From Siniperca chuatsi (taxonomy: Eukaryota; Chordata; Actinopteri; Centrarchiformes; Sinipercidae): DNA of 64,000 nucleotides. Shown here one piece after another: positions 4,535 to 36,336 of the stretch; position 1 is the stretch's first letter; the number at the start of each line of letters is the position of its first letter. A program made the translations under genes and the position numbers. Under the pieces are notes generated by a model. The model ran no database searches. It was given only the letters and a program-made list of their open reading frames with translations, and was not told where the DNA came from. The stretch is taken from NCBI RefSeq assembly GCF_020085105.1, contig NC_058053.1, positions 1 through 64,000 on the forward strand, written 5' to 3'.

Positions 4535-4567
4535 ATCGCTTCTCGGCCTTTTGGCTAAGATCAAGTG
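4535..4567 (+). pseudogene. U2 snRNA gene, 5' part cut off by LINE insertion
   Basis: The first 33 nucleotides of U2, ending ...ATCAAGTG, are followed directly by the 5' end of the Keno-like LINE. The rest of this gene resumes at 9740. Only about five U2 bases (TAGTA, nucleotides 34-38) appear to be missing between the two halves. Confidence 0.92.
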
Positions 4568-4597
4568 CGTTGAGGAGGGACCACTGATGACTTTAAG

Positions 4598-6052: not shown

Positions 6053-6086
6053 CTGGTTACAGGAAGTAATGTGAGTGAACCCATAA

Positions 6087-9452: not shown

Positions 9453-9739
9453 ATGTCGAGGGAGCTTACCTCCTTTAGCAAAATCTGTTGTTTAAAATGT
9501 TTGTGTGATTGGGTTTGATGATGTTTTCACATGTGGACATACTGATGTCATCCAGCATTATATCATAGTGTGAAAGAAAAAGTGGAATAGATCTCATATA
9601 AGGAACTAAAAGGGTTTGAGTATGGAAGGCTATCCTTATTGAATGTGAGTTTGACTTGGTTGTAATGTTTTGTACCATAACATGTGTAAAATTTGTTTAT
9701 GAATCAAATAAATTATATATTTCCAAAAAAAAAAAAAAA

Positions 9740-9889
9740 TCTGTTCTTATCAGTTTAATATCTGATAGGTCCTCTATAAGGGGACGACGTATTAAACGGA
9801 TTTTTAGCACCGGGAGCTGAAAACGGGGCTCGCTCCGCTCACTCCACGCATCGACCCGGCACTGCAGCGCCGCCGGGAACGGTGCACCC
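9740..9889 (+). pseudogene. U2 snRNA gene, 3' part after LINE insertion
   Basis: Resumes at U2 nucleotide 39 straight after the A tail of the LINE and runs to GGTGCACCC. With 4535-4567 it is the second half of one split U2 gene. Apart from one extra C near 9811 it matches the complete copy at 10736. Confidence 0.92.
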
Positions 9890-10735
9890 TTCTCCTGCCT
9901 TGTGGAAAGCCAAACGCGGAACGCGAACGGAGAGGTTCGACGCTGGACCAAAAGACTCGAGTCGGGGTGGATGGCATCCCTTAGGGCTGGGAGCGGTGGG
10001 AAAACCCTCTGTGGACTCACCGATGTTCCTCGTGGAACCTCATTGGGCCCCCAGTCTCAAATCGCCGTGTGTCGGCCGCGACGCGGCGCAGAATGGACAG
10101 CCAGGCCAAGCCTCCGAAAAGGCAGCCAGATTTGCGCTTTGGATTGGCAGGGGATATTGCCCCATTGCGACCGGTATACAATACCTGTTAAATGTGCCCC
10201 GCATTTTCCCTCCCTCTCTCTCACTCGTGGCCGAGGGCTTGGCTTGCGAGAGCCTGAGTACTCCTGATGTTAAAAGCCAGGCCCTAATTTCTCCGCAATC
10301 CGATTGGATGGAGCCTGGGATAATGCGGTTGAGGGGGAATGGGCGTGGCCTGGTATTTGGGACTCCGTCGGCAGAGTGAGGCTTACCGCGAGGGTAGTGA
10401 CTGGGGCCGCTAGGCTCGTCGGCCGCTCTCGAGGCCAGGCCTGCACTTGCTCGGGTTTCTCTTCATAACGCACAAGTCTTTCGCCTTTTACTAAAGACTT
10501 CCGTGGAGAGGGACGCCCATGAGTTACGCCTATTTTTGGCAGGCTTTGCCGTCCGGCCGAGCCCTTGCGCGTCTGTGAAAAGCAAGAGAGCTGCCCCAGG
10601 CGATATCGGGGCGTGGGCCGCTTGGGAGGCGGTGCTGAGGAAGCAGCCGTTGTTGTGCGCAGAGACAAGAGGCTGCACCAGGGCAAGGGAGAAGCGTTCC
10701 AGGAGGTGGGCTCCGGAAGCGAAGCGTCAGGGCTC
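9890..10735 (+). repeat. U2 repeat-unit spacer
   Basis: Third full spacer, the same as 3697-4534 with a few one-base differences. The candidate proximal element is repeated at about 10673-10693. No other gene is seen. Confidence 0.85.
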
Positions 10736-10922
10736 ATCGCTTCTCGGCCTTTTGGCTAAGATCAAGTGTAGTATCTGTTCTTATCAGTTTAATATCTGAT
10801 AGGTCCTCTATAAGGGGACGACGTATTAAACGGATTTTTAGCACGGGAGCTGAAAACGGGGCTCGCTCCGCTCACTCCACGCATCGACCCGGCACTGCAG
10901 CGCCGCCGGGAACGGTGCACCC
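10736..10922 (+). ncRNA. RNU2: U2 spliceosomal snRNA gene (complete copy)
   Basis: A complete 187 bp copy and the last in the array. It has the canonical 5' end, the GTAGTA branch-recognition bases, stem-loop IIa, an Sm-like site and the 3' end GGTGCACCC. It shares the divergent but co-varying stems IIb and IV of the copy at 3512 and keeps the AC near stem III which that copy lacks. Only ~90 bp of normal 3' flank follow before satellite DNA begins. Confidence 0.94.
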
Positions 10923-11011
10923 TTCTCCTGCCTTGTGGAAAGCCAAACGCGAACGGAGAGGTTCGACGCTGGACCAAAAGACTCGAGTCGGGGTGGATGG
11001 CATCCCTTAGG
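10923..11011 (+). repeat. Truncated U2 3' flank at the array/satellite junction
   Basis: Normal U2 downstream flank, including the GTGGAAAGCCAA stretch, up to CATCCCTTAGGG. There it changes abruptly to satellite DNA. The fragment at 1100 begins at the same flank position. Confidence 0.8.
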
Positions 11012-11979
11012 GGGTATGGCGATTGTCAGTGGTGACAATTGGGAACATTTTGACAAATGCTGCGACAAATAGGAACACTTTTGACGCGCGCGACGTCCAC
11101 TTGGGAACGTTTTTGACACAGCGGAACTCGGTGTCCAAAGGGGAACACTGAGGGCTCCGTTCTGAGGTATGGCAAATGTCAACATATAAGGGCGTTTCTT
11201 ACATTTTGACATTTGGCACACTTTTGAATGGGGTTTTCGGTATGGCAATTGTCAGTGTGACAAATAGGAACATTTTTGACAAATGCTGTGACAAATAGGA
11301 ACATTTTTGACGCAGCGCGACGTCCACTTGGGAACATTTTTGACACGGGGGAACTCGGTGTCCAAAGGGGAACACTGAGGTCTCCATTCTGAGGTATGGC
11401 AAATGTCAAAATATAAGGCCAATTCTTACATTTTGACATTTGGCACACTTTTGAATGGGGTTTTCGGTATGGCAATTGTCAGTGTTGACAATTGGGAACA
11501 TTTTTGACAAATGCTGTGACAAAAAGGAACATTTTTGACGCGGCGCGACGTCCACTTGGGAACATTTTTGACACGGCGGAACTCGGTGTCCAAAGGGGAA
11601 CACTGAGGTCTCCATTCTGAGGTATGGCAAATGTCAAAATATAAGGCCAATTCTTATATTTTGACATTTGGCACACTTTTGAATGGGGTTTTGGGGGTTG
11701 CCAAATGTCAGTGGTGACAATTGGGAACATTTTTGACACGGCGGAACTCTGTGTCCAATTGGGAACACTGAGGGCTCCATTCTGAGGTATGGCAAATGTC
11801 AAAATATAAGGGCAATTCTTATATTTTGACATTTGGCACACTTTTGAATGGGGTTTTCGGTATGGCAATTGTCAGTGTTGACAAATGGGAACATTTTTGA
11901 CAAATGCTGTGACAAATAGGAACATTTTTGACACGGCGCGACGTCCACTTGGGAACATTTTTGACACGGCAGAACTTGG

Positions 11980-12390
11980 TGTTGTCAGCGCATTCATTTA
12001 TTTGTAAAAGAAAAGTCTGGAGAGAAGTTATTCCTTAATTTGGCATTTATTAAAGAATTGGAGGATAAAAAGCATGTTGTACAAACATATTTTCTATTCA
12101 GACAACCACAGTCAGCAAGCTGTTAATCTGTAGCCATCATCCTAAAAAGAATGCTATTCTTAACATTACACAGAGTTTTAAATGAAAATGTACAACTATC
12201 TGATTTCTACAGAGGTGGGGAGGAGCTGTGGTTTAAACTTAGCTCTCCTTCGGTGGTGCACAGGCTGGTCCCAGCCTCTGGCACACGATTCCACCCTTCG
12301 TCTGGAGACAGCGCCCTAGTGGAGGAATCCTACACTTCCTCTGTTTGTAACTTGCTAAAGTCTCTGCTTTGTTCCCCAAAACTGATACTT
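11980..12390 (-). repeat. Non-satellite segment in HOR copy 1, resembles a transcript 3' end
   Basis: Unlike the monomers around it, this segment has mixed composition and no box. Read on the minus strand it looks like the end of an mRNA: a short open stretch ending near 12152, then AT-rich DNA with polyadenylation signals AATAAA at 12051-12046 and 12002-11997, close to the segment end. The source gene was not recognised. It probably became trapped in the satellite and was amplified with it. Confidence 0.6.
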
Positions 12391-14910
12391 GTCCAAAGAG
12401 GAACACTGAGGCTCCATTCTGAGGTATGGCAAATGTCAAAATATAAGGGCAATTCTTATATTTTGACATTTGGCACACTTTTGAATGGGGTTTTCGGTAT
12501 GGCAATTGTCAGTGTTGACAATTAGGAACATTTTTGACAAATGCTGTGACAAATAGGAACATTTTTGACGCGGCGCGACGTCCACTTGGGAACATTTTTG
12601 ACACGGCGGAACTTGGCGTCCAAAGGGGAACACTGAGGGCTCCATTCTGAGGTATGGCAAATGTCAAAATATAAGGGCAATTCTTATATTTTGACATTTG
12701 GCACACTTTTGAATGGGGTTTTGGGGGTTGCCAAATGTCAGTGGTGACAATTGGGAACATTTTTGACACGGCGGAACTCTGTGTCCAATTGGGAACACTG
12801 AGGGCTCCATTCTGAGGTATGGCAAATGTCAAAATATAAGGGCATTTCTTATATTTTGACATTTGGCACACTTTTGAATGGGGTTTTCAGTATGGCAATT
12901 GTCAGTGGTGACAATTGGGAACATTTTTGACAAATGCTGTGACAAATAGGAACATTTTTGACGCGGCGCGACGTCCACTTGGGAACATTTTTGACACGGC
13001 GGAACTCGGTGTCCAAAGGGGAACACTGAGGTCTCCATTCTGAGGTATGGCAAATGTCAAAATATAAGGGCAATTCTTATATTTTGACATTTGGCACACT
13101 TTTGAATGGGGTTTTGGGGGTTGCCAAATGTCAGTGGTGACAATTGGGAACATTTTTGACACGGCACAACTCGGTGTCCAATTGGGAACACTGAGGGCTC
13201 CATTCTGAGGTATGGCAAATGTCAAAATATAAGGGCAATTCTTATATTTTGACATTTGGCACACTTTTTGAATGGGGTTTTGGGGTTGCCAAATGTCAGT
13301 GGTGACAATTGGGAACATTTTTGACACGGCGGAACTCGGTGTCCAATTCGAACACTGAGGGCTCCATTCTGAGGTATGGCAAATGTCAAAATATAAGGGC
13401 AATTCTTATATTTTGACATTTGGCACACTTTTGGATGGGGTTTTAGGGGTTGTAAAATGTCAGTGGTGACAATTGGGAACATTTTTGACACGGCGGAACT
13501 CGGTGTCCAATTGGGAACACTGAGGGCTCCATTCTGAGGTATGGCAAATGTCAAAATATAAGGGCATTTCTTATATTTTGACATTTGGCACACTTTTGAA
13601 TGGGGTTTTCGGTATGGCAAATGTCAGTGGTGACAATTGGGAACAATTTTGACAAATGCTGTGACAAATAGGAACATTTTTGACGCGCGCGACGTCCACT
13701 TGGGGAACATTTTGACACGGCGGAACTTGGTGTCCAAAGGGGAACACTGAGGTCTCCATTCTGAGGTATGGCAAATGTCAAAATATAAGGGCAATTCCTA
13801 TATTTTGACATTTGGCACACTTTTTGAATGGGGTTTTTGGTATGGCAATTGTCAGTGGTGACAATTGGGAACAATTTTGACAAATGCTGTGACAAATAGG
13901 AACATTTTTGACGCGGGCGCGACGTCCACTTGGGAACATTTTTGACACGGGCGGAACTTGGCGCCCAAAGGGGAACACTGAGGTCCCCATTCTGAGGTAT
14001 GGCAAATGTCAAAATATAAGGGCAATTCTTATATTTTGACATTTGGCACACTTTTGAATGGGGTTTTGGGGGTTGCCAAATGTCAGTGGTGACAATTGGG
14101 AACATTTTTGACACAGCGGAACTCGGTGTCCAATTGGGAACACTGAGGGCTCCATTCTGAGGTATGGCAAATGTCAAAATATAAGGGCAATTCTTATATT
14201 TTGACATTTGGCACACTTCTGAATGGGGTTTTCGGTATGGCAATTGTCAGTGGTGACAATTGGGAACAATTTTGACAAATGCTGTGACAAATAGGAACAT
14301 TTTTGACGCGGCGCGACGTCCACTTGGGAACATTTTTGACACGGCGGAACTTGGTGTCCAAAGGGGAACACTGAGGTCTCCATTCTGAGGTATGGCAAAT
14401 GTCAAAATATAAGGGCAATTCTTATATTTTGACATTTGGCACACTTTTGAATGGGGTTTTGGGGTTGCCAAATGTCAGTGGTGACAATTGGGAACATTTT
14501 TGACACGGGCGGAACTCGGTGTCCAATTGGGAACACTGAGGTCTCCATTCTGAGGTATGGCAAATGTCAAAATATAAGGGCAATTCTTATATTTTGACAT
14601 TTGGCACACTTTTGAATGGGGTTTTGGGGGTTGCCAAATGTCAGTGGTGACAATTGGGAACATTTTTGACACGGCGGAACTCTGTGTCCAATTGGGAACA
14701 CTGAGGGCTCCATTCTGAGGTATGGCAAATGTCAAAATATAAGGGCAATTCTTATATTTTGACATTTGGCACACTTTTGAATGGGGTTTTCGGTATGGCA
14801 ATTGTCAGTGTTGACAAATGGGAACATTTTTGACAAATGCTGTGACAAATAGGAACATTTTTGACACGCGCGACGTCCACTTGGGAACATTTTTGACACG
14901 GCAGAACTTG

Positions 14911-15320
14911 GTGTTGTCAGCGCATTCATTTATTTGTAAAAGAAAAGTCTGAGAGAAGTTATTCCTTAATTTGGCATTTATTAAAGAATTGGAGGATAAA
15001 AAGCATGTTGTACAAACATATTTTCTATTCAGACAACCACAGTCAGCAAGCTGTTAATCTGTAGCCATCATCCTAAAAAGAATGCTATTCTTAACATTAC
15101 ACAGAGTTTTAAATGAAAATGTACAACTATCTGATTTCTACAGAGGTGGGGAGGAGCTGTGGTTTAAACTTAGCTCTCCCTTCGGTGGTGCACAGGCTGG
15201 TCCCAGCCTCTTGGCACACGATTCCACCCTTCGCCTGGAGACAGCGTCCTAGTGGAGGAATCCTACACTTCCTCTGTTTGTAACTTGCTAAAGTCTCTGC
15301 TTTGTTCCCCAAAACTGATA
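14911..15320 (-). repeat. Non-satellite segment, HOR copy 2
   Basis: Same segment as 11980-12390 with a few base changes and one-base indels; the same minus-strand AATAAA signals are kept. Confidence 0.7.
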
Positions 15321-17839
15321 CTTGTCCAAAGAGGAACACTGAGGCTCCATTCTGAGGTATGGCAAATGTCAAAATATAAGGGCAATTCTTATATTTTGAC
15401 ATTTGGCACACTTTGAATGGGGTTTTGGTATGGCAATTGTCAGTGTTGACAATTAGGAACATTTTTGACAAATGCTGTGACAAATAGGAACATTTTTGAC
15501 GCGCGCGTCCACTTGGGAACATTTTTGACACGGCGGAACTTGGCGCCCAAAGGGGAACACTGAGGGCTCCATTCTGAGGTATGGCAAATGTCAAAATATA
15601 AGGGCAATTCTTATATTTTGACATTTGGCACACTTTTGAATGGGGTTTTGGGGTTGCCAAATGTCAGTGGTGACAATTGGGAACATTTTTGACACGGCGG
15701 AACTCTGTGTCCAATTGGGAACACTGAGGGCTCCATTCTGAGGTATGGCAAATGTCAAAATATAAGGGCATTTCTTATATTTTGACATTTGGCACACTTT
15801 TTGAATGGGGTTTTCAGTATGGCAATTGTCAGTGGTGACAATTGGGAACATTTTTGACAAATGCTGTGACAAATAGGAACATTTTTGACGCGGCGCGACG
15901 TCCACTTGGGAACATTTTTGACACGGCGGAACTCGGTGTCCAAAGGGGAACACTGAGGTCTCCATTCTGAGGTATGGCAAATGTCAAAATATAAGGGCAA
16001 TTCTTATATTTTGACATTTGGCACACTTTTGAATGGGGTTTTGGGGGTTGCCAAATGTCAGTGGTGACAATTGGGAACATTTTTGACACGGCACAACTCG
16101 GTGTCCAATTGGGAACACTGAGGGCTCCATTCTGAGGTATGGCAAATGTCAAAATATAAGGGCAATTCTTATATTTTGACATTTGGCACACTTTTGAATG
16201 GGGTTTTGGGGGTTGCCAAATGTCAGTGGTGACAATTGGGAACATTTTTGACACGGCGGAACTCGGTGTCCAATTCGGAACACTGAGGGCTCCATTCTGA
16301 GGTATGGCAAATGTCAAAATATAAGGGCAATTCTTATATTTTGACATTTGGCACACTTTTGGATGGGGTTTTAGGGGTTGTAAAATGTCAGTGGTGACAA
16401 TTGGGAACATTTTTGACACGGCGGAACTCGGTGTCCAATTGGGAACACTGAGGGCTCCATTCTGAGGTATGGCAAATGTCAAAATATAAGGGCATTTCTT
16501 ATATTTTGACATTTGGCACACTTTTGAATGGGGTTTTCGGTATGGCAAATGTCAGTGGTGACAATTGGGAACAATTTTGACAAATGCTGTGACAAATAGG
16601 AACATTTTTGACGCGGCGCGACGTCCACTTGGGAACATTTTTGACACGGCGGAACTTGGTGTCCAAAGGGGAACACTGAGGTCTCCATTCTGAGGTATGG
16701 CAAATGTCAAAATATAAGGGCAATTCCTATATTTTGACATTTGGCACACTTTTGAATGGGGTTTTCGGTATGGCAATTGTCAGTGGTGACAATTGGGAAC
16801 AATTTTGACAAATGCTGTGACAAATAGGAACATTTTTGACGCGGCGCGACGTCCACTTGGGAACATTTTTGACACGGCGGAACTTGGCGTCCAAAGGGGA
16901 ACACTGAGGTCCCCATTCTGAGGTATGGCAAATGTCAAAATATAAGGGCAATTCTTATATTTTGACATTTGGCACACTTTTGAATGGGGTTTTGGGGGTT
17001 GCCAAATGTCAGTGGTGACAATTGGGAACATTTTTGACACAGCGGAACTCGGTGTCCAATTGGGAACACTGAGGGCTCCATTCTGAGGTATGGCAAATGT
17101 CAAAATATAAGGGCAATTCTTATATTTTGACATTTGGCACACTTCTGAATGGGGTTTTCGGTATGGCAATTGTCAGTGGTGACAATTGGGAACAATTTTG
17201 ACAAATGCTGTGACAAATAGGAACATTTTTGACGCGGCGCGACGTCCACTTGGGAACATTTTTGACACGGCGGAACTTGGTGTCCAAAGGGGAACACTGA
17301 GGTCTCCATTCTGAGGTATGGCAAATGTCAAAATATAAGGGCAATTCTTATATTTTGACATTTGGCACACTTTTGAATGGGGTTTTGGGGTTGCCAAATG
17401 TCAGTGGTGACAATTGGGAACATTTTTGACACTGGCGGAACTCGGTGTCCAATTGGGAACACTGAGGTCTCCATTCTGAGGTATGGCAAATGTCAAAATA
17501 TAAGGGCAATTCTTATATTTTGACATTTGGCACACTTTTGAATGGGGTTTTGGGGTTGCCAAATGTCAGTGGTGACAATTGGGAACATTTTTGACACGGC
17601 GGAACTCTGTGTCCAATTGGGAACACTGAGGGCTCCATTCTGAGGTATGGCAAATGTCAAAATATAAGGGCAATTCTTATATTTTGACATTTGGCACACT
17701 TTTTGAATGGGGTTTTCGGTATGGCAATTGTCAGTGTTGACAAATGGGAACATTTTTGACAAATGCTGTGACAAATAGGAACATTTTTGACACGCCGCGA
17801 CGTCCACTTGGGAACATTTTTGACACGGCAGAACTTGGT

Positions 17840-18250
17840 GTTGTCAGCGCATTCATTTATTTGTAAAAGAAAAGTCTGAGAGAAGTTATTCCTTAATTTG
17901 GCATTTATTAAAGAATTGGAGGATAAAAAGCATGTTGTACAAACATATTTTCTATTCAGACAACCACAGTCAGCAAGCTGTTAATCTGTAGCCATCATCC
18001 TAAAAAAAGAATGCTATTCTTAACATTACACAGAGTTTTAAATGAAAATGTACAACTATCTGATTTCTACAGAGGTGGGGAGGAGCTGTGGTTTAAACTT
18101 AGCTCTCCCTTCGGTGGTGCACAGGCTGGTCCCAGCCTCTTGGCACACGATTCCACCCCTTCGTCTGGAGACAGCGTCCTAGTGGAGGAATCCTACACTT
18201 CCTCTGTTTGTAACTTGCTAAAGTCTCTGCTTTGTTCCCCAAAACTGATA
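17840..18250 (-). repeat. Non-satellite segment, HOR copy 3
   Basis: Same segment again. It has a longer A run near 18001 and one extra C near 18157 compared with its sisters. Confidence 0.7.
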
Positions 18251-20774
18251 CTTGTCCAAAGAGGAACACTGAGGCTCCATTCTGAGAGTATGGCAAATGT
18301 CAAAATATAAGGGCAATTCTTATATTTTGACATTTGGCACACTTTTGAATGGGGTTTTCGGTATGGCAATTGTCAGTGTTGACAATTAGGAACATTTTTG
18401 ACAAATGCTGTGACAAATAGGAACATTTTTGACGCGGCGCGACGTCCACTTGGGAACATTTTTGACACGGCGGAACTTGGCGTCCAAAGGGGAACACTGA
18501 GGGCTCCATTCTGAGGTATGGCAAATGTCAAAATATAAGGGCAATTCTTATATTTTGACATTTGGCACACTTTTGAATGGGGTTTTGGGGGTTGCCAAAT
18601 GTCAGTGGTGACAATTGGGAACATTTTTGACACGGCGGAACTCTGTGTCCAATTGGGAACACTGAGGGCTCCATTCTGAGGTATGGCAAATGTCAAAATA
18701 TAAGGGCATTTCTTATATTTTGACATTTGGCACACTTTTGAATGGGGTTTTCAGTATGGCAATTGTCAGTGGTGACAATTGGGAACATTTTTGACAAATG
18801 CTGTGACAAATAGGAACATTTTTGACGCGGCGCGACGTCCACTTGGGAACATTTTTGACACGGCGGAACTCGGTGTCCAAAGGGGAACACTGAGGTCTCC
18901 ATTCTGAGGTATGGCAAATGTCAAAATATAAGGGCAATTCTTATATTTTGACATTTGGCACACTTACTGAATGGGGTTTTGGGGTTGCCAAATGTCAGTG
19001 GTGACAATTGGGAACATTTTTGACACGGCACAACTCGGTGTCCAATTGGGAACACTGAGGGCTCCATTCTGAGGTATGGCAAATGTCAAAATATAAGGGC
19101 AATTCTTATATTTTGACATTTGGCACACTTTTGAATGGGGTTTTGGGGGTTGCCAAATGTCAGTGGTGACAATTGGGAACATTTTTGACACGGCGGAACT
19201 CGGTGTCCAATTCGGAACACTGAGGGCTCCATTCTGAGGTATGGCAAATGTCAAAATATAAGGGCAATTCTTATATTTTGACATTTGGCACACTTTTGGA
19301 TGGGGTTTTAGGGGTTGTAAAATGTCAGTGGTGACAATTGGGAACATTTTTGACACGGCGGAACTCGGTGTCCAATTGGGAACACTGAGGGCTCCATTCT
19401 GAGGTATGGCAAATGTCAAAATATAAGGGCATTTCTTATATTTTGACATTTGGCACACTTTTGAATGGGGTTTTCGGTATGGCAAATGTCAGTGGTGACA
19501 ATTGGGAACAATTTTGACAAATGCTGTGACAAATAGGAACATTTTTGACGCGGCGCGACGTCCACTTGGGAACATTTTTGACACGGGCGGAACTTGGTGT
19601 CCAAAGGGGAACACTGAGGTCTCCATTCTGAGGTATGGCAAATGTCAAAATATAAGGGCAATTCCTATATTTTGACATTTGGCACACTTTTGAATGGGGT
19701 TTTTTGGTATGGCAATTGTCAGTGGTGACAATTGGGAACAATTTTGACAAATGCTGTGACAAATAGGAACATTTTTGACGCGCGCGACGTCCACTTGGGA
19801 ACATTTTTGACACGGGCGGAACTTGGCGCCCAAAGGGGAACACTGAGGTCCCCATTCTGAGGTATGGCAAATGTCAAAATATAAGGGCAATTCTTATATT
19901 TTGACATTTGGCACACTTTTGAATGGGGTTTTGGGGTTGCCAAATGTCAGTGGTGACAATTGGGAACATTTTTGACACAGCGGAACTCGGTGTCCAATTG
20001 GGAACACTGAGGGCTCCATTCTGAGGTATGGCAAATGTCAAAATATAAGGGCAATTCTTATATTTTGACATTTGGCACACTTCTGAATGGGGTTTTCGGT
20101 ATGGCAATTGTCAGTGGTGACAATTGGGAACAATTTTGACAAATGCTGTGACAAATAGGAACATTTTTGACGCGGCGCGACGTCCACTTGGGAACATTTT
20201 TGACACGGCGGAACTTGGTGTCCAAAGGGGAACACTGAGGTCTCCATTCTGAGGTATGGCAAATGTCAAAATATAAGGGCAATTCTTATATTTTGACATT
20301 TGGCACACTTTTGAATGGGGTTTTGGGGGTTGCCAAATGTCAGTGGTGACAATTGGGAACATTTTTGACACGGCGGAACTCGGTGTCCAATTGGGAACAC
20401 TGAGGTCTCCATTCTGAGGTATGGCAAATGTCAAAATATAAGGGCAATTCTTATATTTTGACATTTGGCACACTTTTGAATGGGGTTTTGGGGTTGCCAA
20501 ATGTCAGTGGTGACAATTGGGAACATTTTTGACACGGCGGAACTCTGTGTCCAATTGGGAACACTGAGGGCTCCATTCTGAGGTATGGCAAATGTCAAAA
20601 TATAAGGGCAATTCTTATATTTTGACATTTGGCACACTTTTGAATGGGGTTTTCGGTATGGCAATTGTCAGTGTTGACAAATGGGAACATTTTTGACAAA
20701 TGCTGTGACAAATAGGAACATTTTTGACACGCCGCGACGTCCACTTGGGAACATTTTTGACACGGCAGAACTTG

Positions 20775-21189
20775 GTGTTGTCAGCGCATTCATTTATTTG
20801 TAAAAGAAAAGTCTGGAGAGAAGTTATTCCTTAATTTGGCATTTATTAAAGAATTGGAGGATAAAAAGCATGTTGTACAAACATATTTTCTATTCAGACA
20901 ACCACAGTCAGCAAGCTGTTAATCTGTAGCCATCATCCTAAAAAAGAATGCTATTCTTAACATTACACAGAGTTTTAAATGAAAATGTACAACTATCTGA
21001 TTTCTACAGAGGTGGGGAGGAGCTGTGGTTTAAACTTAGCTCTCCCTTCGGTGGTGCACAGGCTGGTCCCAGCCTCTTGGCACACGATTCCACCCTTCGT
21101 CTGGAGACAGCGTCCTAGTGGAGGAATCCTACACTTCCTCTGTTTGTAACTTGCTAAAGTCTCTGCTTTGTTCCCCAAAACTGATACTT
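20775..21189 (-). repeat. Non-satellite segment, HOR copy 4
   Basis: Same segment, almost identical to the copy at 23701. Confidence 0.7.
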
Positions 21190-23700
21190 GTCCAAAGAGG
21201 AACACTGAGGCTCCATTCTGAGGTATGGCAAATGTCAAAATATAAGGGCAATTCTTATATTTTGACATTTGGCACACTTTTGAATGGGGTTTTCGGTATG
21301 GCAATTGTCAGTGTTGACAATTAGGAACATTTTTGACAAATGCTGTGACAAATAGGAACATTTTTGACGCTGCGCGACGTCCACTTGGGAACATTTTTGA
21401 CACGGCGGAACTTGGCGTCCAAAGGGGAACACTGAGGGCTCCATTCTGAGGTATGGCAAATGTCAAAATATAAGGGCAATTCTTATATTTTGACATTTGG
21501 CACACTTTTGAATGGGGTTTTGGGGGTTGCCAAATGTCAGTGGTGACAATTGGGAACATATTTGACACGGCGGAACTCTGTGTCCAATTGGGAACACTGA
21601 GGGCTCCATTCTGAGGTATGGCAAATGTCAAAATATAAGGGCATTTCTTATATTTTGACATTTGGCACACTTTTGAATGGGGTTTTCAGTATGGCAATTG
21701 TCAGTGGTGACAATTGGGAACATTTTTGACAAATGCTGTGACAAATAGGAACATTTTTGACGCTGCGCGACGTCCACTTGGGAACATTTTTGACACGGCG
21801 GAACTCGGTGTCCAAAGGGGAACACTGAGGTCTCCATTCTGAGGTATGGCAAATGTCAAAATATAAGGGCAATTCTTATATTTTGACATTTGGCACACTT
21901 TTTGAATGGGGTTTTGGGGTTGCCAAATGTCAGTGGTGACAATTGGGAACATTTTTGACACGGCACAACTCGGTGTCCAATTGGGAACACTGAGGGCTCC
22001 ATTCTGAGGTATGGCAAATGTCAAAATATAAGGGCAATTCTTATATTTTGACATTTGGCACACTACTGAATGGGGTTTTGGGGTTGCCAAATGTCAGTGG
22101 TGACAATTGGGAACATTTTTGACACGGCGGAACTCGGTGTCCAATTCGAACACTGAGGGCTCCATTCTGAGGTATGGCAAATGTCAAAATATAAGGGCAA
22201 TTCTTATATTTTGACATTTGGCACACTTTTGGATGGGGTTTTAGGGGTTGTAAAATGTCAGTGGTGACAATTGGGAACATTTTTGACACGGCGGAACTCG
22301 GTGTCCAATTGGGAACACTGAGGGCTCCATTCTGAGGTATGGCAAATGTCAAAATATAAGGGCATTTCTTATATTTTGACATTTGGCACACTTTTGAATG
22401 GGGTTTTGGTATGGCAAATGTCAGTGGTGACAATTGGGAACAATTTTGACAAATGCTGTGACAAATAGGAACATTTTTGACGCGCGCGACGTCCACTTGG
22501 GAACATTTTTGACACGGCGGAACTTGGTGTCCAAAGGGAACACTGAGGTCTCCATTCTGAGGTATGGCAAATGTCAAAATATAAGGGCAATTCCTATATT
22601 TTGACATTTGGCACACTTTTGAATGGGGTTTTCGGTATGGCAATTGTCAGTGGTGACAATTGGGAACAATTTTGACAAATGCTGTGACAAATAGGAACAT
22701 TTTTGACGCGGCGCGACGTCCACTTGGGAACATTTTTGACACGGCGGAACTTGGCGCCCAAAGGGAACACTGAGGTCCCCATTCTGAGGTATGGCAAATG
22801 TCAAAATATAAGGGCAATTCTTATATTTTGACATTTGGCACACTTTTGAATGGGGTTTTGGGGGTTGCCAAATGTCAGTGGTGACAATTGGGAACATTTT
22901 TGACACAGCGGAACTCGGTGTCCAATTGGGAACACTGAGGGCTCCATTCTGAGGTATGGCAAATGTCAAAATATAAGGGCAATTCTTATATTTTGACATT
23001 TGGCACACTTCTGAATGGGGTTTTTGTATGGCAATTGTCAGTGGTGACAATTGGGAACAATTTTGACAAATGCTGTGACAAATAGGAACATTTTTGACCT
23101 TGGCGCGACGTCCACTTGGGAACATTTTTGACACGGCGGAACTTGGTGTCCAAAGGGAACACTGAGGTCTCCATTCTGAGGTATGGCAAATGTCAAAATA
23201 TAAGGGCAATTCTTATATTTTGACATTTGGCACACTTTTGAATGGGGTTTTGGGGTTGCCAAATGTCAGTGGTGACAATTGGGAACATTTTTGACATCGG
23301 CGGAACTCGGTGTCCAATTGGGAACACTGAGGTCTCCATTCTGAGGTATGGCAAATGTCAAAATATAAGGGCAATTCTTATATTTTGACATTTGGCACAC
23401 TGAATGGGGTTTTGGGGTTGCCAAATGTCAGTGGTGACAATTGGGAACATTTTTGACACGGGCGGAACTCTGTGTCCAATTGGGAACACTGAGGGCTCCA
23501 TTCTGAGGTATGGCAAATGTCAAAATATAAGGGCAATTCTTATATTTTGACATTTGGCACACTTTTGAATGGGGTTTTCGGTATGGCAATTGTCAGTGTT
23601 GACAAATGGGAACATTTTTGACAAATGCTGTGACAAATAGGAACATTTTTGACACGGCGCGACGTCCACTTGGGAACATTTTTGACACGGCAGAACTTGG

Positions 23701-24117
23701 TGTTGTCAGCGCATTCATTTATTTGTAAAAGAAAAGTCTGGAGAGAAGTTATTCCTTAATTTGGCATTTATTAAAGAATTGGAGGATAAAAAGCATGTTG
23801 TACAAACATATTTTCTATTCAGACAACCACAGTCAGCAAGCTGTTAATCTGTAGCCATCATCCTAAAAAAGAATGCTATTCTTAACATTACACAGAGTTT
23901 TAAATGAAAATGTACAACTATCTGATTTCTACAGAGGTGGGGAGGAGCTGTGGTTTAAACTTAGCTCTCCCTTCGGTGGTGCACAGGCTGGTCCCAGCCT
24001 CTTGGCACACGATTCCACCCTTCGTCTGGAGACAGCGTCCTAGTGGAGGAATCCTACACTTCCTCTGTTTGTAACTTGCTAAAGTCTCTGCTTTGTTCCC
24101 CAAAACTGATACTTGTC
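23701..24117 (-). repeat. Non-satellite segment, HOR copy 5
   Basis: Last copy of the segment. The 2.57 kb of satellite after it has no sixth copy, so the array ends before completing another higher-order unit. Confidence 0.7.
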
Positions 24118-26690
24118 CAAAGAGGAACACTGAGGCTCCATTCTGAGGTATGGCAAATGTCAAAATATAAGGGCAATTCTTATATTTTGACATTTGGCAC
24201 ACTTTTGAATGGGGTTTTCGGTATGGCAATTGTCAGTGTTGACAATTAGGAACATTTTTGACAAATGCTGTGACAAATAGGAACATTTTTGACGCGGCGC
24301 GACGTCCACTTGGGAACATTTTTGACACGGCGGAACTTGGCGTCCAAAGGGGAACACTGAGGGCTCCATTCTGAGGTATGGCAAATGTCAAAATATAAGG
24401 GCAATTCTTATATTTTGACATTTGGCACACTTTTGGAATGGGGTTTTGGGGTTGCCAAATGTCAGTGGTGACAATTGGGAACATATTTGACACGGCGGAA
24501 CTCTGTGTCCAATTGGGAACACTGAGGGCTCCATTCTGAGGTATGGCAAATGTCAAAATATAAGGGCAATTCTTATATTTTGACATTTGGCACACTTTTG
24601 AATGGGGTTTTCAGTATGGCAATTGTCAGTGGTGACAATTGGGAACATTTTTGACAAATGCTGTGACAAATAGGAACATTTTTGACGCGGCGCGACGTCC
24701 ACTTGGGAACATTTTTGACACGGCGGAACTCGGTGTCCAAAGGGGAACACTGAGGTCTCCATTCTGAGGTATGGCAAATGTCAAAATATAAGGGCAATTC
24801 TTATATTTTGACATTTGGCACACTTTTGAATGGGGTTTTGGGGTTGCCAAATGTCAGTGGTGACAATTGGGAACATTTTTGACACGGCACAACTCGGTGT
24901 CCAATTGGGAACACTGAGGGCTCCATTCTGAGGTATGGCAAATGTCAAAATATAAGGGCAATTCTTATATTTTGACATTTGGCACACTTTTGAATGGGGT
25001 TTTGGGGGTTGCCAAATGTCAGTGGTGACAATTGGGAACATTTTTGACACGGCGGAACTCGGTGTCCAATTCGAACACTGAGGGCTCCATTCTGAGGTAT
25101 GGCAAATGTCAAAATATAAGGGCAATTCTTATATTTTGACATTTGGCACACTTTTGGATGGGGTTTTAGGGGTTGTAAAATGTCAGTGGTGACAATTGGG
25201 AACATTTTTGACACGGCGGAACTCGGTGTCCAATTGGGAACACTGAGGGCTCCATTCTGAGGTATGGCAAATGTCAAAATATAAGGGCATTTCTTATATT
25301 TTGACATTTGGCACACTTTTGAATGGGGTTTTCGGTATGGCAAATGTCAGTGGTGACAATTGGGAACAATTTTGACAAATGCTGTGACAAATAGGAACAT
25401 TTTTGACGCGGCGCGACGTCCACTTGGGAACATTTTTGACACGGCGGAACTTGGTGTCCAAAGGGGAACACTGAGGTCTCCATTCTGAGGTATGGCAAAT
25501 GTCAAAATATAAGGGCAATTCTTATATTTTGACATTTGGCACACTTTTGAATGGGGTTTTCGGTATGGCAATTGTCAGTGGTGACAATTGGGAACAATTT
25601 TGACAAATGCTGTGACAAATAGGAACATTTTTGACGTGCGCGACGTCCACTTGGGAACATTTTTGACACGGCGGAACTTGGCGCCCAAAGGGGAACACTG
25701 AGGTCCCCATTCTGAGGTATGGCAAATGTCAAAATATAAGGGCAATTCTTATATTTTGACATTTGGCACACTTTTTGAATGGGGTTTTGGGGTTGCCAAA
25801 TGTCAGTGGTGACAATTGGGAACATTTTTGACACAGCGGAACTCGGTGTCCAATTGGGAACACTGAGGGCTCCATTCTGAGGTATGGCAAATGTCAAAAT
25901 ATAAGGGCAATTCTTATATTTTGACATTTGGCACACTTCTGAATGGGGTTTTCGGTATGGCAATTGTCAGTGGTGACAATTGGGAACAATTTTGACAAAT
26001 GCTGTGACAAATAGGAACATTTTTGACGCGGCGCGACGTCCACTTGGGAACATTTTTGACACGGCGGAACTTGGTGTCCAAAGGGGAACACTGAGGTCTC
26101 CATTCTGAGGTATGGCAAATGTCAAAATATAAGGGCAATTCTTATATTTTGACATTTGGCACACTTTTGAATGGGGTTTTGGGGGTTGCCAAATGTCAGT
26201 GGTGACAACTGGGAACATTTTTGACACGGCGGAACTCGGTGTCCAATTGGGAACACTGAGGTCTCCATTCTGAGGTATGGCAAATGTCAAAATATAAGGG
26301 CAATTCTTATATTTTGACATTTGGCACACTTTTGAATGGGGTTTTGGGGGTTGCCAAATGTCAGTGGTGACAATTGGGAACATTTTTGACACGGCGGAAC
26401 TCGGTGTCCAATTGGGAACACTGAGGGCTCCATTCTGAGGTATGGCAAATGTCAAAATATAAGGGCATTCCTTATATTTCGACATTTGGCACACTTTTGA
26501 ATGGGGTTTTCGGTATGGCAAATGTCAGTGGTGACAATTGGGAACATTTTTGACAAATGCTGTGACAAATAGGAACATTTTTGACGCGGCGCGACGTCCA
26601 CTTGGGAACATTTTTGACACGGCGGAGCTCGGTGTCCAAAGGGGAACACTGAGGTCTCCATTCTGAGGTATGGCAAATGTCAAAATATAA

Positions 26691-26944
26691 GGAACAACCT
26701 TCTATTTTGACACTTGGCATACATCAGAATGGGGCGCTCGGGGTTGCCAAATGTCAGTGTGACAGACGGGAACATTTTTGACACACTTCAATGTCCAAAG
26801 GGGAACACTGAGGGCTCCATTCTGAGGTATGGCAAATGTCAAAATATTAGATAGTGTGACAAACGGGGACATTTTTGACACGCATTTTTCCGTCGAAGGC
26901 TAATTTTCACATTTTTCTAACCAAAGTGCAATGCCCATCCCCCA
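26691..26944 (+). repeat. Degenerate end of the main satellite
   Basis: Monomer similarity decays here: the inverted repeat is broken (CTTCTATTTTGACACTTGG) and one unit is shortened. The GGAACATTTTTGACA box is still kept at 26770 and 26866 (as GGGACATTTTTGACA). This is the usual picture at the edge of an array. Confidence 0.75.
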
Positions 26945-27470
26945 CCCAGTGACACACGGGAACATTTTTGACAAATGGGAGGGAGGGTCCGCCGGAGGTC
27001 TACCCAGGAACGAATGCCCGTCTCGGGGCACGCGGAGGAAGGAGGGACCCCCCCCCCTCCAGGACTGGCTCTCTGACAAATGGGAACATTTTTGACAAAT
27101 GGGAGGGAGGGTCCGCCGGAGGTCTACCCAGGAACGAATGCTCGTCTCGGGGCACGCGGAAGGAAGCAGGGACCCCCCCCCCTCCAGGACTGGCGCTCTG
27201 ACAATTGGGAACATTTTTGACAAATGGGAGGGAGGGTCCGCCGGAGGTCTACCCAGGAACGAATGCCCGTCTCTGGGCACGCGGAGGAAGGAGGGACCCC
27301 CCCCATCCAGGACTGGCACTCTGACAATTGGGAACATTTTTGACAAATGGGAGGGAGGGCCCGCCGGAGGTCTTCCCAGGAACGAATGCCCGTCTCGGGG
27401 CACGCGGAGGACCTCCGCCGGGCCCTCCCGGAACGGGCGCTCTGACGATCGGCGTACGCCCCAAATGTCA
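26945..27470 (+). repeat. 124 bp tandem repeat sharing the satellite box, 4 copies
   Basis: Four copies with period 123-125 bp; the box GGGAACATTTTTGACAAATG lies near 26958, 27082, 27207 and 27330. Between boxes the units are GC-rich (GGGAGGGAGGG, CCGCCGGAGGTCT, a C run) and unrelated to the main satellite. Only the box and its edges are shared. Confidence 0.85.
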
Positions 27471-27564
27471 AAAATGTTCCCAAATGGACGCAGACGTAAG
27501 GGAACCCGCGACCTCAGAGGGCCTCGTTAAGTGCGTTTGACCGGGTCGCGACCCTTTACGCTCG

Positions 27565-27965
27565 AGGTAGAGCTTTGCGACCGTTTCCGGTCGAAAGTAG
27601 GTGTTGCTGTGAAGAGCTGGTGTGATTTTGGTGGTCCTGGGTGCATGCTGAGGTGCCTAATAACCTGCACAAAGGTCAAAAGGTCGCCAGGTGTCCCAAA
27701 TGTCAATTTTGACATTTGGGTCAAACCACTGGATTTCATCATTTTAGCACGGGGCGAGAAAGTTGCGACCGTTTCCGGTCGAAAGTCGGGGTTGCAGAGA
27801 AGAGCTGGTGTGATTTTGGTGGTCCTGGGTGCATGCTGAGGTGCCTAATAACCTGCACAAAGGTCAAAAGGTCGCCAGGTGTCCCAAATGTCAATTTTGA
27901 CATTTGGGTCACATCACCTGAACTCAACATTTTAGCACGGGGCCAGAAAGCTGCGACCTTTTCCG
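27565..27965 (+). repeat. 188 bp tandem repeat with palindrome, about 2.2 copies
   Basis: Units begin near TTGCGACCGTTTCCGGTCG at 27575 and 27763, with a diverged start at 27951. Each full unit contains a perfect 26 bp palindrome (arms CCCAAATGTCAA, centre TT) at 27695-27720 and about 27883-27908. Its arms are the TGTCA-AAATG-type half of the satellite box. Confidence 0.85.
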
Positions 27966-28079
27966 TTTGAAAGAAGGGGTCACGGTGGAGCGCTGACGCG
28001 AATTTGGCGGTCCTGCGTGCGGGCTGAGGTGCCCAAAGACCCGCACGCGGGTCGGTAGGCCGGACGGTTCCCTTACGTT

Positions 28080-28440
28080 TTTGAATTATTCAATTTATTA
28101 CATCAAAAATTCATAACTTTTTACAGAAACGTCCCAGAGACCCCATATTCGGCACGGACGGCGCGGGCGGGGCCCGGAACGAGCCCGCGGCGTCGAATCC
28201 CCCCCAGCGGCACCGGGGGGGGAAATAGGGTCCGTTCGACCCGCCGAGAGAGGACGGGTTAGGAAGCGACGAAACTCACACCCTCCATGACTTTTGGACG
28301 GCTCGGAGAGATTTTTTTTTTCGAGCGCGCCAGAGCTCCGATTTTTCGGCACGTCGTCGCCGGGCCCCGGAGGGCCCCGCCCGACTAGGTCCGGCCCCTC
28401 CGGGGCGCTCGGCGGCGGCGCGGGACCGCGTGACACTTCC
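28080..28440. other. GC-rich block, unidentified
   Basis: Strongly GC-rich DNA with long C and G runs (28200, 28217) and CGGCGGCGCG-type stretches, ending where TGACACTTCCCATACATTTG returns to the satellite-like style. It does not match the 18S, 5.8S or 28S rRNA cores as I know them, although the style is reminiscent of ribosomal spacers. No credible reading frame or RNA gene was found. Confidence 0.4.
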
Positions 28441-28489
28441 CATACATTTGAATGGGAAATTTGGAAAGGACGAAAGAATGGGAGGTTAT

Positions 28490-28960
28490 ACCCGAATGTC
28501 AACCCGAATGTCAAAAATGTTCCCGTGCGTCAATTTTCGCAAGGGCCGCTCTGACGAACGGGACCGTTTCTGACACTTGACTTTTTGAGCGCGTGTCAAA
28601 AATGTTCCCGTTCGTCAATACATATTTCCATACGGACCCCCTCCACTGTAACAGTCGACCCGAGCGTCAAAAATGTTCCCGTGCGTCAAATTTCGTAAGG
28701 GCGCTCTGACGAACGGGACCGTTTCTGACACTTGACTTTTTGGGCGCGTGTCAAAAATGTTCCCGTTCGTCAATACATATTTCCATACGGACCCCTCCAC
28801 TGTAACAGTCGACCCGAAGCGCCAAAAATGTTCCCCGCGTCAAATTTCGTAAGGCCCGCTCTGACGAACGGGACCGTTTCTGACACTTGACTTGTTGGGC
28901 GCGTGTCAAAAATGTTCCCGTTCGTCAATACATATTTCCCCTCCACTGTAACGTTCGACG
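28490..28960 (-). repeat. 155 bp tandem repeat, satellite box on the minus strand, 3 copies
   Basis: GCGTGTCAAAAATGTTCCCG recurs at 28591, 28746 and 28901, exactly 155 bp apart, with a second box copy in each unit (near 28510, 28667 and 28822). The box is the reverse complement of that in 11-27 kb. The rest (CATACGGACCCC, CTGTAACAGTCGACC, TCTGACGAACGGGACCG) is unrelated to the other families. Confidence 0.85.
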
Positions 28961-29290
28961 ACGTTCCCGTCCGTCACGGCGGCTTCCCAATCGTCAGAAC
29001 GGTCGTCGGCGACCGAAACGTCAAAAACGAGCCCGCGTGTCAAAAGAGCGCGACAGAGAACGTCCCCTTTGTCAAAAAGGGCTCCGCAAGTGTCAAATCT
29101 AAAAATTGGACGCGGACGCCCCCCTCGGGATCCGGCCGGTCGTCGCGCCCGCGTTCCCGAATGTCAGGAATGTTCCCGAATGTCCAATTCAATGTATGGC
29201 AAGTGTCGACCACATTGACACCGTGGTGACTTTTTGACAATGGCAATACTCTCCCATTCATTTTCCCTGACAATTGGGAACATTTCCCTT
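28961..29290. repeat. Diverged satellite-like DNA with scattered boxes
   Basis: Irregular sequence with repeated GTCAAAA and TGTCAGGAATGTTCCCG-type fragments on the minus strand, then a plus-strand TGACAATTGGGAACATTT at about 29268-29285. No regular period. This is the last sign of the satellite box in the window. Confidence 0.6.
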
Positions 29291-29930
29291 ACCTACCTCG
29301 GTGCTCCTTACCTTTGGTCAAGTTTCTTTTTCTTTTTCTTTTCCTTTCTTTTCTCCCCTTCTTTCCGGGCAGGTTCCAGCGAGATCTCTCTTACCTAGAA
29401 GATATAAAAAATTAAATAAAAAACACATTTTTTAACACGGGGTCGGCTTGGAGTTTTAAGCTTTTAAACTGAGTATTGGTCAGGACCTTAGGCGGACATT
29501 GCTGCAACAGGGCTATTCGGTTTTCTCCCTTTGGTTAATTAGCACTTACCTTTTTTTATTTCCAGCACTTACCGCCCTGCTGCAGTTCTGTTTGTCTGCT
29601 TTTTGTTTTTCTGACCCAGCTGCTCTCCTCAAATTATACCTGAGCACTTACTTTTTATGAATTATCAATGGTGGTGTCTCAATTCTCCCCGTCACAGGAG
29701 ATTTAACTGAGCCCCGTCGACTGTTAGACTATGTAATCATTTATTCCATTTCTTAGTGATTTTAGTCCCAGACACTGATTTGTTGTTTCCCCTAATTTTT
29801 TCCTTTTGGTTGTTTTTAAAACTTTTTATAAACCACATAGTAGCACCTGTTGATTTTATGAACTTAGAATACAAAGAAATACTAGTGCCAGTGCATTATA
29901 ACTGCCTGCAGGGAGTTAACCCCTTTTTGC
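29291..29930. other. Unidentified AT-rich DNA with a pyrimidine tract
   Basis: Starts with a C/T-only tract (about 29325-29366) and continues as AT-rich DNA with no recognisable gene or element. A 66-codon open frame at 29756-29956 runs into the telomere-like block and has no family likeness, so it is not called. Confidence 0.4.
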
Positions 29931-30094
29931 CCCTAACCCTAACCCTATGTTTATAAGTCCCCTAACCTAACCCCTGACCCTAACCCTAACCTTAACCCCC
30001 TAACCCTAACCCCTAACCCTAATCCCCTAAACCAACCCCTAACCCTAATCCCCTAAACCAACCCCTAACCCCTTAACCCCTAACCCTAACCCTT
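29931..30094 (+). repeat. Degenerate interstitial telomere repeat (CCCTAA)n
   Basis: About 165 bp of CCCTAA and variants (CCCCTAA, CCCTAAACCAA). The C-rich strand is the plus strand, the orientation of a left chromosome end. It lies between the satellite side and a 5'-truncated LINE, so it is internal and not a present telomere. Confidence 0.9.
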
Positions 30095-32513
30095 TGAGAT
30101 AAACAAAATATTTGAAGAATACTACAAAAAATTATACTCATCTGATCTGGACCCAAACCAAGAAGACATAAACCAATTCCTCAATAACATCCTACTACCA
30201 AAACTCAACCCGGAACAAACTAACTCTCTCGAATTACCAGTCACTGAAAAAGAACTCCACTCCGCGCTGAAACACATGCAAAATAATAAGGCACCAGGAC
30301 CGGATGGTTTCCCTGCTGAGTTCTACAAACATTTTTGGTCAACCTTATTCCCACTATTCAGTAGAACAATAACAGATATAAAACAAAATGCTAAATTCCC
30401 ATCCCACATGAACACAGCGCTTATATCACTCATCCCTAAACCCAACAAAGACCACACCCTCACATCTAACTACCTTCCTATTTCACTTATAAATGTCAAC
30501 GTAAAAATCATCAGCAAAGTATTATCCCATAGAATTGTAAAAATTATACCATATATCATCCATCCTGATCAGACCAGCTTTATAAAAGGTAGACATGCAT
30601 CCAATAATACTCGCAGATTATACAATTTAATGCATTACTCATCAGTACAACAGAAAGATACTCTCATTGCCACATTAGATGCAGAAAAAGTTTTCGATAG
30701 GGTCAAGTGGAAATTTTTATTCACCGCATTACAAAAATTTGGCTTTGGAGAGTCATTTATTAACTGGATCAAGATTTTATAGACATCACCATCTGCCACA
30801 GTCACAACCAATGGACTAACATCACAAAGCTTCACACTGCACAGGGGGACGAGGCAGGGATGTCCACTCTCTCCATCTCTATTTACCATTTTTATTGAAC
30901 CCCTAGCAGTAGCTATCCGCCAAAACCCATCGATCAAAGGTATTGAAACACCACAACAAACACATAAAATCTCACTTTATGCAGATGATATTCTACTATT
31001 TATACAAAAACCGTTACTATCCACTCAAGAAATAATTAAAACAATCCAGTCCTTTTCAAAGATCTCAGATTATGCAATAAATTGGAACAAATCATCCATC
31101 CTCCCTTTACATAAAACCAAATGGGATGTGGCACCCCACCAATCACCTATACCTACATGTCATGATCACATCACTTACTTAGGCATCAAGATTTCCTCCA
31201 GACTGTCAGAGTTGGTAACACTCAACTTCACACCACTGCTAAAAAAATAGAAGACGACTTGCTTCGATGGCTCAACCTTCCAATCTCCATAATTGGCAGG
31301 ATAGCGGCAATAAAAATGACAATTTTACCAAAAATCAATTATTTATTCTCAATGATTCCAATCCACCCCACACTCACCTGGTTTAAATCGCTAGACTCCA
31401 TTATCACTCACTTCTACTGGAAAAATAAAATGCCAAGGATAAAATTCACTACACTACAAAAAAACAGGACTAGAAGCACCAAATTTTCATTACTACTCAA
31501 TGGCTAATCAACTGCAATACATATACAAATGGATCCACCCCACCAAATCCGATATTATATGGCTAGATATCGAACAGTCACTATGCAAAGAATTAAATAT
31601 AGCTGACATACCATTCCTTTCTAAATCAATCAAACACCACACATGTTTCAACGCTGTAACAATAACTTCCACTCTGACAGCCTGGTGGAAATTTCACCAA
31701 ATCACAAATTCTATACTAGCTCCATCTAACCTCACCCCACTGTGGAACAATCCTGACTTCATAAGCAATAAAAAAAAATACTGAACTTCCGCACATGGGA
31801 TGAAAAAGGTATCACTCACATTAAACACATTTTCAAATCCAACACATTAACAACATTTCCGCAGTTGGCCCAGGAGTTCGGCATCAGGAGCAATGAATTT
31901 TTAAAATACCTACAAATTAAATCTTCTGTTCTGGCTAAAATAATAATCAGAGCCACAAACTTAAAACTTCCACCTGCAATATCAGACTTGGTTAACATTC
32001 CATCCCGAAAGAAACTTCTCTCTAAAATATACAAAATCATTTCAAATCAACTTCAGACCATATACTTGCCAACAATAAAATGGGAAAATGATCTCTCAAT
32101 AGCTCCTGATGCCAACTTCTGGACCCAAATTTGCAAAAACATCTATCTTATGTCCAAAAATGCTAATCTTCAATTAATACAATACAAAACACTTCACAGA
32201 ACACATTACACGGGCAATAGATTAGCTAAAATGGGTTTTACATCAGAAATTTGCACACATTGCAGTCAGAAATCCACAGATACATACATCCATGCAACCT
32301 GGCACTGCACTCCCATCAAACAGTTTTGGGAAGAGGTCACACAGACACTATCCACTTTAGTGGGCTGCCACATCCCACTATCGCCCTCTCTCTGCTTGCT
32401 AGGGGACCTCACAATAATTACTGATAAATCTATAAACTTTAAAATTCTCCTAATAGCTCTAACCATCGCCACGAAAACTATCCTCATGAACTGGAAAACT
32501 CGCAACAACATAC
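30095..32513 (+). mobile_element. 5'-truncated L1-clade LINE (ORF2 part)
   Basis: Starts in the middle of ORF2, just before the RT (FEEYYKKLY), directly at the end of the telomere-like block. RT motifs follow: NNKAPGPDGFPAEFY, SLINVNVKIISKVL, LDAEKVFDRVKW, then TRQGCPLSP and LYADDIL (near 30975). The C-terminal region has LQYKTLHRTHYT and a CX2C...H...W-type segment (ICTHCSQ...HATWHC). The style is fish L1 clade. The copy is dead: a stop falls after WIKIL near 30780 and there are frame changes near 31245, 31470 and 31780. A chromovirus interrupts it at 32513, and its frame continues at 36847. Confidence 0.88.
32509..32513 (+). repeat. Target-site duplication of the chromovirus, left copy (CATAC)
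   Basis: CATAC immediately before the first LTR is repeated at 36842-36846 immediately after the second, the 5 bp duplication usual for Ty3/Gypsy integrases. Confidence 0.9.
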
Positions 32514-33018
32514 TGTTACGGACGGACCAATCCGGAGACACTGGTAAGGAGATTTCGAGAGTTTATTGATTACAGAGAGAAATAGAGAGTCTATAGGAGT
32601 AGAGAAGATACCGTCCCTTGTATCACTGACGGTGGCGGAGTGCAGGAGCTGGATAGCTGAACACGAGGCGACGGGAACGGGAGCCACACACACTGGAGAC
32701 AGAAGACACTCCGGAGCCGGGTGAGAACTGCTACCCATAGAAAACCGGAGTCGAGTTAGAGGTTCGTAGTGCTGGATGGCTGTGATCAAGAAGTAGCGTC
32801 GTAGGAGAGTCCGAGGTTAACTGAAGGTAGGAGGCGTAGCTCTGTCCTTCTAGCGAACGAGACCAGACACTGACTGAGGTGAAGAGTGGAGATTTATAGT
32901 GGAGAGGAGTGGCTAATTGCAACCAGGTGTGTGCTGAGTCACAGGTGCAGGCCATTAGTATTCAGGTGAGGAGGAGTGGTGTGGCTGAGATGAGGTGGAG
33001 CCTGGCGTGTCTGTGACA
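32514..33018 (-). repeat. Chromovirus 3' LTR
   Basis: 505 bp, bounded by TGTTACGG and CTGTGACA on the plus strand, and matched over its full length by 36337-36841. Confidence 0.93.
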
Positions 33019-33031
33019 GTACCCCCCCCTT
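33019..33031 (-). other. Chromovirus polypurine tract
   Basis: GTACCCCCCCCTT on the plus strand is a purine run on the element strand directly next to the 3' LTR, the known primer site for plus-strand DNA synthesis in LTR elements. Confidence 0.75.
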
Positions 33032-36000: not shown

Positions 36001-36336
36001 GGACTCGGCCCACTGTAACGCTCTCCCTTGCAGCTGGGAGATAACGAAGGCTATTTTGGAGCGTTCAGTGGGATACAAGGGCGATTGCATTTCCAGAACC
36101 AGGGTACACTGTAGAATGAATCCATTGCAGTCCTCCGCCGAGCCAGAGAAGGGCGCTGGTTTGGCCATGGGACTGGAACAATGCGGAACTGCTGGAGTGA
36201 CCGGAGCGGAAGCGGAAGTGGTGGAGGTGGACGTGGATGATGGTGGAGCGTTGAGGCCACGGCGTAGGATCTCCACCAGCTCCTGGAATGGATCCGTGGC
36301 ACTCATGCTGCAATCCTGTTGTGTGGTCCGGTCTTC

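Follow-up and report, generated by a model that had tools for sequence, protein, structure and literature searches.

Satellite families sharing a 24 bp box in Siniperca chuatsi are probably segments of one dispersed mobile element

The CENP-B box is a 17 bp motif found in satellite repeats that otherwise differ in sequence. A 17 bp motif in differing repeats was likewise described in a first-pass annotation of the first 64,000 nucleotides of contig NC_058053.1 of Siniperca chuatsi (assembly GCF_020085105.1; this whole stretch is referred to as the window), but here the repeats belong to one element. Among mobile elements, the closest described systems, in the parts of the cited papers drawn on here, are of three kinds. 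The Tetris/TIR-220 satellite of Drosophila virilis is a non-autonomous DNA element whose internal tandem repeats have grown into kilobase arrays (PMC4079207), Helitrons and Helentrons combine fixed ends with variable internal arrays, different ones of which can stand in one element (PMC12628747, PMC4067079), and Cryptons lack terminal inverted repeats (PMC3212892). The feature in the window is probably a single copy, its left end missing, of a dispersed and apparently non-coding mobile element whose body consists largely of repeats of a 24 bp box. It resembles Tetris in its internal arrays, but Tetris belongs to the foldback elements and has terminal inverted repeats, none of which were found in the box element, and it differs from the Tetris of that account (PMC4079207) in holding several unit lengths and one common box within a single element. 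From Helitrons and Helentrons, as characterised in the same excerpts (PMC12628747, PMC4067079), it differs in its terminal signatures and target. As in Cryptons, there are no terminal inverted repeats, and three box-element loci on contig C24 contain a tyrosine-recombinase-like gene, although that gene may be nested, and the portion of PMC3212892 drawn on does not mention box-filled arms or satellite growth.

The box common to the families, TGGGAACATTTTTGACA in its 17 bp form, has 150 matches with at most three mismatches in the window, between 11,070 and 29,178, against 0.57 expected from shuffles. Exact matches number 81 forward and 1 reverse in the window, which is the start of contig C12, and 197 forward and 187 reverse in the 719 Mb and 65 contigs of the genome searched, where the same pattern read backwards gave 0 and 1. 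The sharing of one box is thus borne out, but not its length: in an extended alignment the common unit is better described as the 24 bp TGACANNNGGGAACATTTTTGACA, made of two TGACA half-sites 19 bp apart (TGACA-N14-TGACA). Degenerate copies are present throughout 26.5–29.3 kb, including the stretches between the named families. At three mismatches or fewer the boxes as far as 27,345 are in plus orientation and those from 27,466 onward in minus orientation, with weaker plus copies interspersed among the latter. The palindrome reported for the 188 bp family, CCCAAATGTCAATTTTGACATTTGGG, was located at 27,695 and 27,883, and several box positions elsewhere in the genome, among the matches listed, form inverted pairs 0.8–3.6 kb apart. 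A search of literature text for box or unit strings returned a single 13-letter match, in a fungal small-RNA study; such an absence is no proof that the box is undescribed.

Long homology to the window is found at the loci fetched from elsewhere in the genome, and complete copies on C6, C10 (two) and C16 are collinear with window 26,540–29,292 at 70–89% identity. For the order of segments the window was cut into eight element segments and a 406 bp insert, and their best matches were taken at 16 loci. All eight segments occur in window order in C10a (L025) and C10c (L037), seven in C6 and C2, six in C16a, C10b, C13 and C9, and five in C24A. C9b has five, its first link overlapping its 165 bp match, C1 has four, two of them at the same spot, and C24B, C41 and L068 (on C13) have only two, the first link and the 165 bp segment, each of which also matches the other. 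Counts of copies of the element in the genome are lower bounds, only the best candidates having been scored. The C2 copy is 94–99% identical to the window by segment. In the short copies the 155 bp segment amounts to about one unit or less, and the 124 bp segment is absent (C6, C16a, C10b) or represented by one partial unit (C10a, C13). Because the same segment order recurs at other loci, often with about one unit of each, the four families are, as far as sequence can tell, successive parts of a single element of about 2–4 kb that is dispersed and apparently non-coding.

The families had been annotated as otherwise unrelated, with completely different sequence between the boxes. They are instead adjacent segments that recur in the same order elsewhere, and the stretches between families co-occur with that order in the copies. 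Nor is a box that recruits new, unrelated repeats supported, the families already being segments of one element. Seemingly independent satellites linked by a short box can therefore be parts of a single mobile element, and such a box reveals the descent of the element before it reveals any host protein, which calls for caution with CENP-B-like boxes read from sequence alone.

The description of the families as tandem repeats holds, with the qualification that the 165 and 228 bp units are one family. Box cores in the 228 bp unit are spaced by steps of 31 and 33 bp, so that the longer unit is the 165 bp unit with two extra boxes. The two lengths are mixed in an array of about 15.7 kb, from 11,013 to about 26,760, in which the 406 bp insert recurs five times, with 98.3–100% identity between its copies, and marks a higher-order period of 2.93 kb; the insert is also present in the C2 array, 99% identical to the window version. 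Satellite units of the array are found as well inside dispersed copies with defined ends, as in a satellite derived from a transposable element. It would seem likely that segments were enlarged in place, adjacent boxes and units having undergone unequal exchange or slippage during replication, and that this local growth would have given rise to the 165, 228, 124, 188 and 155 bp units within one element and finally to the 15.7 kb array. Short elements with about one unit of each segment, beside kilobase arrays in the same genome, offer a system for studying satellite origins.

The element begins with CATGCCTTAGGC and ends with GGGAACATTTCCCTTACA, and the DNA outside these ends differs between copies. 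A search with the terminal patterns, allowing up to two mismatches, gave 25 left and 14 right ends, with none for the reversed controls. Five left-end matches, on C20, C2, C8, C14 and C15, carry a common variant, GCGCGTTTTGACA, and the one on C20 (L080 221–265) stands amid other repeat-like DNA. Both ends are present in five fetched copies (C6, C10a, C10b, C16a and C8), those of C16a and C8 being diverged. None of the five has terminal inverted repeats, the matches within the outer 350 bp being internal and mostly box-like, which does not fit a DDE cut-and-paste transposon with such repeats. The C10a copy interrupts a dispersed repeat, and its joined flanks align across the site with a net difference of 2–3 nucleotides to uninterrupted counterparts in four places, two of them fetched loci and two in the window. 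The lack of terminal inverted repeats together with so little change at the target points away from most cut-and-paste transposons.

In the window the junction between spacer and array, at 11,012/11,013, is abrupt and falls inside the spacer of an array of U2 and U5 small nuclear RNA (snRNA) genes. A second copy of the box element is found within U2-U5 DNA at C41:380–13200 (L052, L071, L072), on a 16 kb contig, at a different place of the U2-U5 unit.

Several observations weigh against the reading of one mobile element and against a functional box within it. Six segments are found in C8 with the first link out of place, and four in C4 with the 124 bp match out of place, these out-of-order matches being single and weak, and the first link, which carries boxes, also matches the 165 bp segment. 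The counts of ends include fragments, such as that on C20 with only about 45 bp of element. Evidence of insertion from an uninterrupted paralogous site comes from one copy, C10a, which has TTCCTTG on both sides of the element; this is not required by the uninterrupted sites and may be a target duplication or chance. Direct repeats of at least 5 bp are absent from the ends of the four other copies, C10b having one of 4 bp. The window copy must be rearranged, since its right end is not followed by U2-U5 DNA, and the U2-U5 unit at the C41 copy is without about 113 bp between the flanks, which is not a clean transposition. No enzyme can be assigned to the element with confidence, only a candidate. 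The remaining points concern conservation. Within families, boxes were compared with the rest of the unit by shifting the box mask circularly, for the 165, 228, 124 and 155 bp units; of the 69 unit intervals of the 165/228 bp array 64 measured 150–260 bp and 63 of these were used. Nucleotide diversity was 0.0068 in boxes against 0.0400 in the rest for 36 units of 165 bp (p 0.38), 0.0187 against 0.0333 for 27 units of 228 bp (p 0.07), 0.069 against 0.109 for four units of 124 bp (p 0.52) and 0.042 against 0.053 for three units of 155 bp (p 0.51), so that no unit type shows a significant excess of box conservation. In an alignment of six copies box columns are equal to the rest (0.784 and 0.781); columns up to 24 bp away from a box have a lower value, 0.685, which may reflect alignment error in repeats.

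Pairwise comparisons, with boxes defined in a third copy, gave a different picture. In 11 of 12 comparisons the similarity at box positions exceeds that of the rest, and in 10 of 12 it exceeds that of positions within 20 bp. By our own grouping of the copies, the excess is seen in all eight comparisons between two subfamilies, in all three within the second and not in the single one within the first. Because these 12 comparisons overlap and repeats can homogenise, a constraint on the box is possible and modest, to judge by these alignments, and homogenisation among repeats could itself yield the mild excess. The first-pass expectation that the box would be better conserved than the rest of its unit therefore lacks significant support in the four unit types compared and in the six copies and held, modestly, between pairs.

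What the box does can be accounted for in several ways. It is tentatively suggested that it may serve as the recognition site for the element's mobilising enzyme, a role to which we give rather less than an even chance; it would explain why the box is used in both orientations throughout the body and is mildly better conserved when diverged copies are compared, and a link to a recombinase, if true, would account for one motif filling the element. The box may equally be a mere duplicated core, a slippage unit of 19 or 31 bp that binds nothing and persists through recent duplication and homogenisation. This is also a serious possibility that falls somewhat short of even: it agrees with the lack of significant conservation within families and the equal columns of the six copies, and by our reading the box of the 124 bp family is about 1.3 copies of a 19 bp period, with TGACAAATGGGA at both ends, but it leaves aside the excess in 11 of the 12 overlapping comparisons and the retention of the box in both orientations across segments that otherwise differ. 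The original proposal, a host protein that like CENP-B would bind the box in a number of independent satellites, is most improbable; a box common to otherwise differing sequences would fit it, but those sequences are parts of one element, and a general centromere satellite would seem to call for more than the 384 exact boxes counted in 719 Mb. A rolling-circle element of Helitron or Helentron type with central tandem repeats is quite improbable as well, since the ends CATGCCTTAGG and CCCTTACA are unlike the TC...CTRR of Helitrons, although a long target duplication was not found, which would suit such an element. Elements of this type do carry arrays that grow into satellites, in the part of PMC12628747 drawn on. 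The ends are also unlike the T-rich ends, TT target and subterminal inverted repeats given for Helentrons, along with a 3′ stem-loop, in the excerpt of PMC4067079; the flanks and termini, compared by eye with that description, had neither a TT target nor subterminal inverted repeats, and a Helentron was set aside.

The preferred reading, a dispersed element filled with boxes, is compatible with a further proposal that names the candidate enzyme. A tyrosine recombinase would move the element, with a gene cassette on C24 as the autonomous form and the box-filled copies as non-autonomous, Crypton-like derivatives; we consider this rather doubtful. The C24 locus has, in order, the left end, a box domain, a cassette of about 4.15 kb and then box, 188 bp, G+C and 155 bp segments, the box element thus continuing on both sides of the cassette at one chromosome end. 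On the minus strand of the cassette are exon-like frames of a recombinase-like gene split by introns, in which, by our reading, GHRTG, HKT, DIR, CHN and FYAL motifs follow one another in tyrosine-recombinase order. Pfam gave, below threshold, an integrase SAM-like domain (E 0.057) followed by Phage_integrase (E 0.068), but the third-best match, of similar strength (E 0.16), is unrelated, and the other searches lend no support: NCBIfam had no match, PHROGs a single one without known function (E 0.23) and solved structures two weak unrelated ones (E 0.6–0.7). Box DNA lies at all junctions seen, that is at both junctions in two of the three genome places that hold the 3′ part of the cassette and at the one junction read in the third. 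A cassette intron holds the element palindrome (E 2e-7; best of 60 shuffles 1e-3). The lack of terminal inverted repeats is as in the Cryptons of the PMC3212892 excerpt. Against this proposal, the cassette flanks, again by our reading, read together as a single 165 bp unit, with TGGGTT at either end of the cassette, which is what a nested insertion would leave, and TGGGTT itself resembles the 4–6 bp direct repeats described for Cryptons in that excerpt (PMC3212892); no consistent direct repeat of this kind was seen at the ends of the box element. The three places are all on C24, as are the genome matches of an 84-residue cassette exon (six rows), and the cassette copies, which all lie close to one chromosome end, may have arisen by local duplication. 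Another match, at C24:17.08 Mb, is an older gene fragment outside boxes, with none in 9.5 kb. In the cassette TGTCA occurs 14 times against 6.7 expected, a count reached by 1 of 100 shuffles, but no excess was seen for TGACA, TTTGACA and GGGAAC. It is somewhat more likely that the cassette is a nested passenger than the mobilising enzyme. A bolder form, in which a Crypton-like vertebrate element has arms made of dozens of its recombinase's own 24 bp sites in both orientations, which the enzyme or exchange turned into several satellite families, is unlikely; if true, it would offer a direct route from a recombinase site to satellite DNA.

The layout of the element in the window is given in Table 1.

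Table 1. Segments of the box element in the window
Feature	Position	Strand	Remarks
165/228 bp segment, amplified to satellite array	11013..26759	+	2.93 kb higher-order period; right limit approximate; element left end not seen
First of five 406 bp inserts	11985..12390	+	marks the higher-order period
Four further 406 bp inserts	14917–15323, 17844–18253, 20781–21189, 23706–24114		
Link segment	26760..26949	+	two boxes
124 bp family	26950..27411	+	four units
Link segment	27412..27574	+	first inverted box (27,466–27,482, minus strand)
188 bp family	27575..28033	+	with palindrome CCCAAATGTCAATTTTGACATTTGGG
G+C-rich element segment	28040..28490	+	no box within 6 mismatches
155 bp family	28498..28939	+	per unit two minus boxes and one degenerate plus box
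Right terminal segment	28940..29293	+	ending GGGAACATTTCCCTTAC

To the left of the element, at window 1500–11012, U2 and U5 snRNA genes or pieces of them are linked in an array. Rfam at gathering thresholds gave only these in the window, four U2 and four U5, and a ribosomal spacer was therefore dismissed. Dada is a DDE transposon that targets snRNA and tRNA genes, inserting inside the small RNA gene with a target duplication of 6–7 bp, according to the excerpt of PMC3706591. The window and C41 copies of the box element touch the U2-U5 spacer and not a gene, and C10a lies in a dispersed repeat; Dada at the snRNA array is unsupported when set against that description (PMC3706591), and the terms sought do not occur in PMC8869645. 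Within the snRNA array a non-long-terminal-repeat-like element occupies 4570–9740, with two long reading frames at 4574–6049 and 6087–9449. Its end is a run of A that abuts a fragment of a U2 snRNA gene, as would be the case for Keno, which in the part of PMC4640811 drawn on is a U2-targeting family of fish and other animals; Keno is a candidate family only. To the right of the box element, degenerate CCCTAA repeats, internal and telomere-like, are found at 29960–30093, followed at 30090–36600 by reverse-transcriptase-like frames of L1-like and Gypsy-like elements, recognised by eye only.

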